Assembly: GCF_025252405.1 (NCBI RefSeq)
Contig: NZ_CP104307.1
Location: forward strand, 3,782,001 to 3,846,000
Origin: Flavobacterium sp. TR2
Lineage (GTDB): Bacteria; Bacteroidota; Bacteroidia; Flavobacteriales; Flavobacteriaceae
Length of the DNA: 64,000 nt
Direction: 5' to 3'
Both the position numbers and the translations under genes were made by a program. Numbering within the stretch: the first letter of the stretch is position 1; each line of letters opens with the position of its first letter. The notes under the pieces were generated by a model, which worked only from the letters and a program-made list of their open reading frames with translations, was not told the origin of the DNA and searched no databases. Positions 774 to 35,062 of the stretch are shown in pieces.

Positions 774-1865
774 CTAATTTTTAATTTTCTTACTCTTCTT
801 CCCTTTCTTCCACCAAATAATAAATCCAGTTATAGGCAAAGAAGCGCCAATCAAACTTACCAAACTCCAGATTATTTTTCCTGTAAGCCCAAAGAAAACT
901 CCTGTGTGCAAATCATGATTGCTCGCTTCGTAAACATCTGCAGCGTTGTTGTCTTTGTACAATTTTGTTCGCAGCATCTGCCCTGTTTTTCCGTCAAAGA
1001 AAAGGGTGTTTTGGTTTCTTGCCCAATCGTTCGGATAGGTCATTCTTAACCGAAGCTCACCTGTCTTTCTGATGGAAAATGAAACCGAAGCAGCACCTGG
1101 ATATTTTGCATTTGCACTTTCGTAAATGTTATTGTAACGAACAGGAATTGTAGTCGAATCTATTCTGGCATTAGAAACCACTTCATCACCTTTTCTAAGT
1201 TTGCTTCCAGTCACCAAACTCACTCCTTTTTTGACAGTATCATATTTAAAATACGTTCCCGAAAAAGCAATTAAAAGCAGAACAATAGAAGCATAAAATC
1301 CTAAAACTTGATGCAGATCAAAATTGATTCTTTTAAAAGAACCGCTCCATTTTATCTTTAAAGATTGCTTGAACTGGCGTCTTTTTTTTGGAAACCATAA
1401 AACTAGTCCCGTTAGAAGCATAACGATAAAAATCACAACCGACCAGCCTTGAATTAACTCTCCAACTTCTCCCAACAATAAAGTTCGGTGAATTTCCAAA
1501 ACCGTATTCAGCCAGTCTGCTCCCTGCTGGTTGATTAAAGTTCCATCGTACGGATTAAAATAATACGTCTTTTTCTTTTTGGTCGAAATTTGAACTGCCG
1601 CATTCGGCTCTGCCCTATCTATTTTTAAAGCCGTTATTTTCTGCTTAGGCTCAAGACGTTCGTAATTTTCAATTATTGTTTTTAACCCAATAAATGGCTT
1701 TTTCTGAACAGGAACATGAAGATATTCCTTGTTTGCAAAGTCACGAATTTCTTCTTCAAAAACATAAAGAAATCCTGTAATGCTCACTATAAAAACAATG
1801 AGGCCCGATGCTAAACCGAGCCACAAATGTATTTGTCTGATAGTATTTTTAAAACCTTTGGTCAT
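774..1865 (-). CDS. PepSY-associated transmembrane protein (PiuB-like)
   Basis: An inner-membrane protein of about 363 aa, read from the ATG at 1865; a longer reading would need a TTG at 1874. It has an N-terminal membrane helix (HLWLGLASGLIVFIVSITGFLYVFEEE), a periplasmic PepSY-like region, two central helices (WSVVIFIVMLLTGLVLWFP and the following FYASIVLLLIAFSGTYF), and a final helix before a basic tail (WWKKGKKSKK). This order is typical of the PepSY-TM family found beside TonB-dependent siderophore receptors, where it is thought to help reduce or release iron from the siderophore. The siderophore receptor lies directly upstream on the same strand (54 bp gap), which supports an operon and an iron-uptake role. 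The biochemical activity is inferred. Confidence 0.8.
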   Translation of the reverse strand: MTKGFKNTIRQIHLWLGLASGLIVFIVSITGFLYVFEEEIRDFANKEYLHVPVQKKPFIGLKTIIENYERLEPKQKITALKIDRAEPNAAVQISTKKKKTYYFNPYDGTLINQQGADWLNTVLEIHRTLLLGEVGELIQGWSVVIFIVMLLTGLVLWFPKKRRQFKQSLKIKWSGSFKRINFDLHQVLGFYASIVLLLIAFSGTYFKYDTVKKGVSLVTGSKLRKGDEVVSNARIDSTTIPVRYNNIYESANAKYPGAASVSFSIRKTGELRLRMTYPNDWARNQNTLFFDGKTGQMLRTKLYKDNNAADVYEASNHDLHTGVFFGLTGKIIWSLVSLIGASLPITGFIIWWKKGKKSKKIKN

Positions 1866-34160: not shown

Positions 34161-34195
34161 ACGTTTCGGCAAGAAAACAGCTTTCTTACCGAACA
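34161..34195 (-). terminator. Probable terminator after the IlvN-like gene
   Basis: In minus-strand RNA, TTCGGTAAGAAA pairs with TTTCTTGCCGAA (one G-U pair), and a T-rich tail (ACGTTTTATTTTT) follows. It ends just before the MscS gene. Confidence 0.55.
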
Positions 34196-34200
34196 TTTTT

Positions 34201-34707
34201 CTAAATATCTACGCAAAAACCTTCTGGAGACTTTATCAAGGCAATTTTGGCGCTCTTTACAAATTCAATTACCCCTAACCGATTAAATGTTTCAGTTAAA
34301 TATTCTATTTCCTCATCTGCACCTGCTGCCTGCAGTATGGTGAAGTCTTTTTGAATCTCTGAAACTTTAAGATCATTTTCACGAAGCAGGCCTTCCATTT
34401 TTGCATCTGTCATAAATAGTGCTGTTGGAATCTTAAATAATACGATCTGCACTGCAGCTATTTCTTCGTTTAACGAGTAATAGCATTTAAAAACTTCTAT
34501 AATTTTCTCTATCTGCGCCGCTAAATTTGTAATCGTATCCAATGTTTCATTTACCACAATAGTGTGTCTGTACATTTTATCAATTTCACAAATAGAAATA
34601 TTAAGGCTCAAAATCTCTATTTGTTTTCTTATAAACATTGAGCTTAACTTAGCGATTAATCTTATCTGATCTTCTGAATAAATGGTAAGGGTAAATTCTT
34701 TTTTCAT
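34201..34707 (-). CDS. IlvN-like acetolactate synthase small (regulatory) subunit, without a linked IlvB
   Basis: A 168-aa protein. The N-terminal ACT domain (about 1-80: EFTLTIYSEDQIRLIAKLSS, RHTIVVNETLDTITNLAAQI, IEKIIEVFKCYY) and the second domain (LLRENDLKVSEIQKDFTILQ, FNRLGVIEFVKSAKIALIKS) follow the order of Bacteroidota IlvN. IlvN binds valine and regulates acetolactate synthase in branched-chain amino acid synthesis. No catalytic IlvB, IlvC or IlvD gene is near, so this is a stand-alone and rather divergent copy. Expression is probably controlled by two upstream Ile-rich leader peptides with terminators (34752-35062). That control supports a branched-chain amino acid role despite the isolation. 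Confidence 0.75.
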   Translation of the reverse strand: MKKEFTLTIYSEDQIRLIAKLSSMFIRKQIEILSLNISICEIDKMYRHTIVVNETLDTITNLAAQIEKIIEVFKCYYSLNEEIAAVQIVLFKIPTALFMTDAKMEGLLRENDLKVSEIQKDFTILQAAGADEEIEYLTETFNRLGVIEFVKSAKIALIKSPEGFCVDI

Positions 34708-34751
34708 TGCTGATTTTTATTTGTGTTTTTGAAGGGATTTGAAGGAGAAAT

Positions 34752-34791
34752 AAAAAAAGCCTTTCACATTTGACTGAGAAAGGCTTTTTTT
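34752..34791 (-). terminator. Attenuator terminator 2 of the IlvN-like gene
   Basis: A perfect 13-bp stem (AAAAAAAGCCTTT, 34752-34764, with its complement at 34779-34791) is followed on the minus strand by a T-run. It lies between leader peptide 2 and the IlvN-like start codon, so in that position it can only act as a conditional (attenuator) terminator. Confidence 0.8.
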
Positions 34792-34816
34792 GAATAGACA
34801 ATAGCATCCTGACTCG

Positions 34817-34876
34817 TCATGTGATACGAATAATGATAATTGAAATAATAATGCTATTCTGAACTGAAATTTTCAT
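34817..34876 (-). CDS. Ile-rich leader peptide 2
   Basis: A 19-codon ORF, MKISVQNSIIISIIIIRIT, ends in TGA. Nine of its 19 residues are Ile, mostly in one block. The RNA segment AATAGCAT inside the ORF can pair with ATGCTATT just downstream of the stop, and the terminator at 34752-34791 follows. This is the classic arrangement of a translation-controlled attenuator: ribosomes stalled at Ile codons would change RNA folding. The alternative antiterminator pairing is less clear here than in leader 1. Confidence 0.75.
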   Translation of the reverse strand: MKISVQNSIIISIIIIRIT

Positions 34877-34890
34877 ACTTGCCATAAACA

Positions 34891-34919
34891 AAAAAACCTC
34901 CCGCTGAGGGGAGGTTTTT
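34891..34919 (-). terminator. Attenuator terminator 1 of the IlvN-like gene
   Basis: A perfect 11-bp stem, AAAAACCTCCC (34892-34902) with GGGAGGTTTTT (34909-34919), has a 6-nt loop and a T-run in minus-strand RNA. It lies between leader peptides 1 and 2. Confidence 0.85.
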
Positions 34920-34962
34920 CTAAATTGTAAATTTTACTTATTTATATAACATCCCTTCACTA

Positions 34963-35016
34963 CTATCGAATGATAATTGTGATAATAATTGAAGCGATGT
35001 TAATTATATTTTTCAT
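34963..35016 (-). CDS. Ile-rich leader peptide 1
   Basis: A 17-codon ORF, MKNIINIASIIITIIIR, ends in TAG. Nine of its 17 residues are Ile. In RNA, AACATCGCTTCA within the ORF (35001-34990) pairs 11 of 12 with TGAAGGGATGTT after the stop (34959-34948). GGGATGTT can instead pair 7 of 8 with AACCTCCC of terminator 1. These are the segments 1:2, 2:3 and 3:4 of a classical attenuator. Confidence 0.8.
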   Translation of the reverse strand: MKNIINIASIIITIIIR

Positions 35017-35033
35017 TTGCTTATTTGGAAGCA

Positions 35034-35062
35034 CAAATATATTGATATTTTTTAATCTCCAA
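35034..35062 (-). promoter_or_regulatory. Promoter of the leader-IlvN transcript
   Basis: On the minus strand, TATATTTG (35041-35034) is an exact TAnnTTTG -7 element. TTG, as part of TTTG, lies 18 nt upstream as the -33 element (35062-35060). The expected transcript starts a few bases later and reaches leader peptide 1 within about 15 nt. Confidence 0.6.

Follow-up and report, generated by a model that had tools for sequence, protein, structure and literature searches.

On the minus strand of the window, by which we mean the whole 64,000-nucleotide stretch of Flavobacterium sp. TR2 DNA analysed here, two full leader-peptide attenuators follow one another (35016-34752), as the initial annotation had claimed and as direct reading of the sequence confirmed. 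Each consists of a leader open reading frame, competing pairings and its own intrinsic terminator, and both lie upstream of a solitary IlvN paralogue. With good confidence, we read them as two isoleucine-reading, ribosome-stalling attenuators acting in series, and the gene behind them encodes an orphan small subunit of acetohydroxyacid synthase (AHAS), the first enzyme of branched-chain amino acid synthesis, which probably joins the sole IlvB of the genome in trans. The features of the locus, in window coordinates, are the following.

35034-35062, minus strand: promoter, read from the sequence, with TTG at 35062-35060, an 18-nt spacer and TATATTTG at 35041-35034
34963-35016, minus strand: leader peptide 1, MKNIINIASIIITIIIR, 17 aa with 9 Ile, ATG at 35016 and stop at 34963
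34996-35002, minus strand: leader 1 segment 1, TAACATC, with the partner GATGTTA
34948-34955, minus strand: leader 1 segment 2, GGGATGTT, with segment 1 or segment 3 as alternative partner
34909-34916, minus strand: leader 1 segment 3, AACCTCCC, which serves both the antiterminator, as pairing partner, and terminator 1, as its 5' arm
34890-34919, minus strand: terminator 1, AAAAACCTCCC...GGGAGGTTTTTTT, from folding
34817-34876, minus strand: leader peptide 2, MKISVQNSIIISIIIIRIT, 19 aa with 9 Ile, ATG at 34876 and stop at 34817
34826-34831, minus strand: leader 2 segment 1, ATTCGT, starting with the final Ile-run codon
34808-34818, minus strand: leader 2 segment 2, GACGAGTCAGG, overlapping the stop codon of leader 2
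34772-34783, minus strand: leader 2 segment 3, CCTTTCTCAGTC
34752-34791, minus strand: terminator 2, AAAAAAAGCCTTTCTC...GAAAGGCTTTTTTT, from folding
34201-34707, minus strand: orphan IlvN paralogue, 168 aa, with ACT and ALS_ss_C domains
34165-34193, minus strand: terminator-like hairpin 3' of the orphan gene, between it and the channel gene, from the terminator scan

The promoter, which we take to be of the Bacteroidetes type (TTG-N18-TATATTTG), includes the element TAnnTTTG, preserved in 13 of 13 aligned relatives. Leader 2 has an alternative in-frame ATG at 34885, which would extend the peptide by MAS. The region of leader 1 folds with a z-score of -6.6 (0 of 200 shuffles as good) and that of leader 2 with -3.4 (1 of 200). 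A simple terminator scan of the window picked up neither terminator 1 nor terminator 2; despite this miss, both stems fold and lead into T-runs. Upstream of the orphan gene lies a gene for an alcohol dehydrogenase, and downstream of it one for an MscS-type channel. The claim that no ilv gene adjoins the locus therefore stands for the window but fails for some relatives, in which ilvA lies directly downstream.

In the proposed mechanism, both attenuators would read the supply of isoleucyl-tRNA, serially on one transcript. When isoleucine is plentiful, the ribosome on the leader would reach the stop codon and cover segment 2, the 3:4 hairpin would form, and RNA polymerase would stop, first near 34890 and, if it escapes, near 34752. 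When isoleucine is short, the ribosome would stall in the Ile run before segment 2, the 2:3 antiterminator would form, and transcription would continue. Because both locks must open, basal expression would be multiplied down and the on-switch would become steeper, and the prediction of a sharper response from serial attenuators is plausible.

We computed the ribosome geometry of this switch for 57 distinct loci with a lone orphan gene, assuming a ribosome leading edge of 15 nt and counting 2:3 as formed at four or more expected pairs. With the ribosome stalled at the third-last Ile codon, segment 2 was left free in 57/57 loci for each leader, and 2:3 formed in 56/57 for leader 1 and 57/57 for leader 2. 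A stall at the first Ile codon reached the 2:3 threshold in 56/57 for leader 1 and in only 47/57 for leader 2. When the bases between the stop and segment 3 were shuffled as a control, the stalled 2:3 threshold was reached in 24/285 and 88/285. With the ribosome at the stop codon, 3:4 formed in 57/57 for both leaders, and 2:3 dropped below one pair in 44/57 for leader 1 and 57/57 for leader 2; at least one 2:3 pair persisted for leader 1 in 13/57, including the window copy (1.2 pairs). Coverage of segment 2 by this ribosome was complete in 57/57 for leader 2, and for leader 1 segment 2 was partly reached in 55/57 and completely covered in 7/57. The folding outcome with no ribosome was mixed for both leaders. 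The computed geometry fits the classical attenuation switch in 56/57 loci for leader 1 and 57/57 for leader 2.

The pairings themselves were scored on the leader alignments from the same 57 loci. For leader 1, 84.3% of the cells of the 1:2 stem are paired, and 6 of 7 pairs show both-side changes, a level reached by 8 of 500 shuffles; one slid control, however, exceeded the covariation score of this stem, whose further pair types were not above the shuffles. The 3:4 stem of leader 1 is paired in 97.5% of cells, with both-side changes in two pairs (13 of 500 shuffles), and the cells with both-side changes outnumber those in every shuffle. For leader 2, 93.2% of cells are paired in 1:2, with a change from G-C to A-U at one pair in 6 sequences, and 95.9% in 3:4, with an A-U/G-C swap at one pair in 27 sequences. 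Every compensatory change in leader 2 is confined to a single pair, and because the cells count sequences rather than events, these changes may represent one or two inherited events. In the antiterminators, 88.9% (leader 1) and 93.8% (leader 2) of the 2:3 cells are paired; in the 57-locus alignment, covariation did not go beyond shuffles for leader 1, and leader 2 had neither a double change nor covariation. Hairpins 1:2 and 3:4 have some covariation support, and the antiterminators rest on conservation and geometry. Together with the folding of the stalled and at-stop states as proposed, this partial compensatory change supports the attenuation reading of the initial annotation.

The conservation of both leaders was followed in relatives drawn from 150 and then 398 Flavobacterium genomes, from a named genome collection (71 loci, among them F. 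johnsoniae CI04 and F. anhuiense), and additionally by region. The 140 IlvN-like matches reduced to 97 that are distinct by their first 150 residues, comprising 57 lone copies, without an IlvB end within 700 bases upstream, versus 40 ilvB-linked copies. Exactly two Ile-rich leaders were found in all 57 lone loci, at -290 to -347 and -154 to -203 relative to the start codon of the orphan gene, with 6-10 Ile in leader 1 and 5-10 in leader 2 (44% and 42% of residues). The Ile runs and pairing segments of both leaders are kept in 57/57, so that the loss of conservation that would have spoken against the initial annotation was not observed among orthologues. In L094, the start codon of leader 2 is TTG. 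None of the 40 ilvB-linked copies has an Ile-rich leader in the 480 bases before ilvN; two of them have a leader pair before ilvB and one (G060) before the whole operon, and for many of the 40 the upstream sequence ends before such a pair could be seen. Since the neighbouring genes vary between clades, the leaders and the gene are preserved as a unit.

This conservation bears on the possibility that only one attenuator is functional, the other being a relic of duplication or operon rearrangement. Leader 1 is similar to the ilvA leader and might be a mere passenger, and in 6 of the 57 loci it reads past its usual stop, to 24-25 aa. We nevertheless consider a relic improbable, because both Ile runs, both terminators and both 1:2 stems are present in 57/57 loci, with some compensatory change, and because ilvB-ilvN-ilvA, ilvN-ilvA and whole operons retain the leader pair as well. 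The short, Ile-rich peptides could also be imagined as working hydrophobic micropeptides of a type I toxin-like kind, with attenuation incidental. This is very unlikely given the variable residues between the Ile runs, the terminator and alternative pairing after each leader, and the amino-acid-matched leaders that also stand before ilvA and ilvD. A T-box or riboswitch, in which the highly structured RNA would bind tRNA or a metabolite with no sensing by ribosomes, is still harder to credit: the Ile codon runs are the conserved element, and the 32 matches to Rfam (E up to 5) include neither a T-box nor a metabolite riboswitch. Nothing in Rfam reached the gathering score for the window leaders, the nearest models being Thr_leader (35.7 bits) and Phe_leader (31.3 bits) against 55. 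Ribosome-mediated attenuation by both units is the reading that we prefer.

In relatives, the tandem leaders stand before larger ilv units. G060 (L249) has two leaders, each with a terminator, flanked by a DUF4136-like gene on one side and by ilvE-ilvD-ilvB-ilvN on the other (names assigned by eye), and the arrangement in G231 (L297) looks identical apart from a displaced stop of the second leader. G299 and G069, whose named counterparts are L073 (F. rhamnosiphilum) and L074 (from a metagenome bin), carry ilvB-ilvN-ilvA behind two leaders, with DUF4136 and globin genes as flanks; the domains were tested for G299 alone. The DUF4136/globin flanks in G323 (L134) enclose two leaders, ilvN and ilvA, with no ilvB, and this ilvA is the only one found in that genome. 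Since relatives have such leader pairs in front of a whole ilv operon, of ilvB-ilvN-ilvA and of ilvN-ilvA, the lone ACT-domain gene looks like what is left of an isoleucine operon. In our reading, its product is a paralogue of the AHAS small subunit that descends from an ilv operon with tandem leaders of this kind. The simplest reading is a stepwise loss, first of ilvE, ilvD and ilvC, then of ilvB, and then of the linkage to ilvA, in an order that we infer. In the protein tree, all 57 lone copies fall on one side of a branch (94% bootstrap, SH-aLRT 39; 100/99 for the same branch without L134), and the IlvN proteins of G069 and G299 are their neighbours. The serial same-amino-acid attenuators form a preserved module that apparently predates the isolation of its target gene, and regulatory RNA and regulatory subunit would then have outlasted the enzyme that they once served.

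Several observations were made beside this history. Genome G288 has three orphan copies (L126, L125 and L140), each with its own tandem leaders, and L126 is followed by a second ilvA. The Flavobacterium ilv operons contain two IlvN types that are deeply separated in the tree (L002 versus L011-L025). The ilvB gene is broken up into two ORFs in L090 and L123, from Flavobacterium covae and F. davisii. On the minus strand of L306, at 908-1052, there is a Flavo-1 RNA (RF01705, 45.2 bits), which lies about 3.6 kb away from the G056 tandem leaders and shows no sign of a link to them.

Not all relatives retain a full-length protein behind the leaders. We read 13 shorter or divergent relatives with two leaders upstream and an ilvA-like gene next downstream in every case; 12 of them (L298, L300-L308, L278 and L279) encode IlvN-like proteins of 142-146 aa, and L299 encodes one of 170 aa. 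The single short protein that was scanned for domains keeps ACT matches alone. With these relatives added to the tree, the canonical proteins still fall on one side (92/85), with many weak inner forks and some long branches. Such proteins raise the possibility that the orphan no longer contacts IlvB and acts as a free, Ile-responsive ACT-domain regulator, for example of threonine deaminase. The position of ilvA directly after the orphan gene in 4 of the 57 lone loci (L134, L053, L126 and L129) would suit such a role, as would the many alignment columns that distinguish lone from ilvB-linked copies. We regard it as possible but on the unlikely side, since the window protein retains its ALS_ss_C domain, the lone copies are under purifying selection, and no ilvA was found downstream in 53/57 lone loci (2.0-3.5 kb searched).

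The orphan protein matches PF10369 (ALS_ss_C) at 3.5e-9, with 37 bits against a cut-off of 23.2, and ACT_5 with 25.8, slightly below the cut-off of 27. It scores 58.7 of 119 for NF008864 and 46.5 of 56.9 for TIGR00119 under the NCBIfam equivalog cut-offs, and because it lies below these small-subunit cut-offs we call it an IlvN paralogue. The median dN/dS of 0.18 (range 0.05-0.48, 157 lone pairs) indicates purifying selection on the orphan gene. Among the columns that separate the two groups, position 40 is Cys in 53/57 lone copies and Ser in 39/40 linked ones, and position 75 is Cys in 56/57 lone and 0/40 linked copies. At what we take to be the N11 position, Asp occurs in 53/57 lone and 1/40 linked copies, and also in the aligned Arabidopsis small subunit. 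The position equivalent to E. coli G14 is replaced in 31/57 lone copies (by Arg in the window), keeps Gly in 26 and is replaced in 0/40 linked copies, of which only 1 is of the type found at the ilv operon of the window's own genome; PMC13158618 assigns this position the decisive part in valine inhibition. The residue comparison suggests a changed effector control of the orphan protein. An idea of uniform valine insensitivity was toned down, given the 26/57 copies with Gly at G14 and the N11 Asp shared by the Arabidopsis subunit. The enterobacterial AHAS II, with its IlvM subunit, is described as valine-insensitive with one ACT-like subdomain in PMC5727371.

The genome has one IlvB match, away from the orphan locus, in a cluster read as leuA-leuB-ilvD-ilvB-ilvN-ilvC (leuB and ilvD identified by eye). 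With a single IlvB, the likeliest task of the orphan would be to join it in trans during isoleucine shortage, and IlvB bound to the orphan might come under a different, perhaps valine-tolerant, control.

Other ilv genes have attenuators of their own. An Ile+Val-rich leader, e.g. MQISIIITSVVVVNVIHTSASGML, precedes ilvD in 26/26 lone-bearing genomes, where additional Ile/Leu/Val-containing ORFs in some rows were taken as incidental. A single Ile leader, e.g. MKNFNNIIIAIISIIAIQQ, precedes 28 of the 30 ilvA loci read (35 matches), and the remaining two (G323 and G392) belong to operons with tandem leaders. The threonine deaminase gene ilvA of the window's own genome (NF006390, 2.5e-189) has such a leader, followed by a terminator plain in the sequence. 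In this genome, the leader 1 model scores itself at 2.3e-17, the ilvA leader at 2.9e-7 and the ilvD leader at 0.0019, and by these scores leader 1 resembles the ilvA attenuator. The leader 2 model gives weak scores to the ilvA leader (3.6e-4) and to leader 1 (0.0021), both below an unexplained match at 5.5e-5. A recent tandem duplication of one attenuator at the window locus is unsupported, as the leader 2 model scores leader 1 so weakly; a duplication in the far past is conceivable. In another lineage (L295), the two attenuator copies look like recent duplicates. Within one genome, the single Ile attenuator of ilvA and the mixed Ile+Val attenuator of the ilvD operon can be compared with two serial Ile attenuators, which makes the idea of sharpening directly testable.

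Leaders for other amino acids were also seen. At L185 1500-1660 (own genome C1:1557201-1557362), the Cys/Met-rich leader MKTIAKRNMMCCKMMQMCIPICCCQK lies upstream of an O-acetylhomoserine sulfhydrylase gene and is likely a sulfur amino acid attenuator. On the minus strand of L183 (own genome C1:4157509-4157678), a leader-like ORF with Cys pairs (MKNFSQNIRTSFPCCFAMCC...) is followed by an ORF of 428 aa, glutamate dehydrogenase-like by eye.

The serial arrangement extends beyond the orphan loci. At E 1e-7, matches to the leader 2 model occur in 71 of the 398 Flavobacterium genomes, and all 50 genomes with at least two IlvN-like matches have an attenuator of the leader 2 type, as judged by reading the tables side by side, although in G093 it stands before a whole ilv operon. 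Across the family, the model matches 8/299 genomes at 1e-6, own genome included. An ilvE-like gene lies behind two leaders with terminators in G382, G196, G310, G328, G009, G335, G060 and G093, and in G490 of another genus, with ilvD and ilvB next where the record extends. G009 (L293), and from another genus G657 (L296), add a third, upstream Ile/Val leader with its terminator; G382 also has a third upstream leader, but with a 263-codon ORF intervening. The two triple arrangements are the following.

L293, 867-1254: three serial leaders with a terminator each (Ile/Val, Ile, Ile) before an ilvE-like gene and ilvD
L296, oriented 1080-1458, minus strand: three serial leaders with a terminator each (Ile/Val, Ile, Ile) before an ilvE-like gene and ilvD

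An automatic scan at ilvD in 29 other genera, with cases unchecked and some records holding little upstream sequence, counted 3 genera with two serial attenuators, 14 with one and 12 with none. Arrangements in series turn up repeatedly within Flavobacteriaceae, up to three in number and also before whole ilv operons. The leaders before ilvA and the ilv operons point to leader-peptide attenuation as a common mechanism in this branch of Bacteroidota; our literature search, which left subscription papers mostly outside, did not find it described there, though older reviews may mention it. The finding is larger than the initial annotation stated: the operon arrangements in relatives, the likeness of leader 1 to the ilvA attenuator and the serial attenuators across the family lay beyond its view.

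More tentatively, two or three serial attenuators in Flavobacteriaceae might work as a digital isoleucine switch, and in many Flavobacterium species the double lock might govern an exchangeable small subunit that makes the single AHAS Ile-dedicated and valine-tolerant under isoleucine starvation. If true, isozymes would be switched by swapping the regulatory subunit and not by making a second enzyme, and the double-locked orphan subunit suggests a cheap route to a second AHAS isozyme.

Classical attenuators, such as those of the trp, his, thr and ilv operons, combine a leader ORF, 1:2/2:3/3:4 pairings and an intrinsic terminator, and the enterobacterial ilvGMEDA operon places AHAS and threonine deaminase under attenuation, which suits isoleucine synthesis, with a single multivalent attenuator. 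The Flavobacterium units resemble ribosome-mediated attenuators of this kind in their short ORFs with codons for the regulated amino acid, the same set of pairings with an exclusive antiterminator, their intrinsic terminators, and the coverage of segment 2 by the ribosome at the stop. They differ from the classical cases in standing as two same-amino-acid units in series, before an orphan regulatory subunit, in Bacteroidota; unlike ilvGMEDA, the orphan locus lacks the catalytic subunit. The ilvA and ilvD-operon attenuators of the same genome have leaders and terminators also scored by the leader 1 model, but they are single, with Ile+Val at ilvD, whereas the orphan locus has two that read Ile only. 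The trp mechanism is summarised in PMC3641672, which also describes the tandem attenuators of Salmonella mgtCBR, whose signals are ATP and proline and whose stem-loops are unlike intrinsic terminators. As in mgtCBR, one transcript carries two leader ORFs and two attenuators; unlike mgtCBR with its two different signals, both Flavobacterium leaders have Ile runs and an intrinsic terminator each. Tandem homologous riboswitches, described as pseudo-cooperative and more digital in PMC9481103, likewise line up copies of one sensor that each work on their own, but they bind the metabolite directly, whereas the Flavobacterium leaders would be read by the translating ribosome. Our literature search, with most subscription papers outside it, returned only mgtCBR and riboswitches and no same-signal ribosome attenuators in series. 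The known kin of the double Ile attenuator are single attenuators, the mgtCBR pair (PMC3641672) and tandem riboswitches (PMC9481103).
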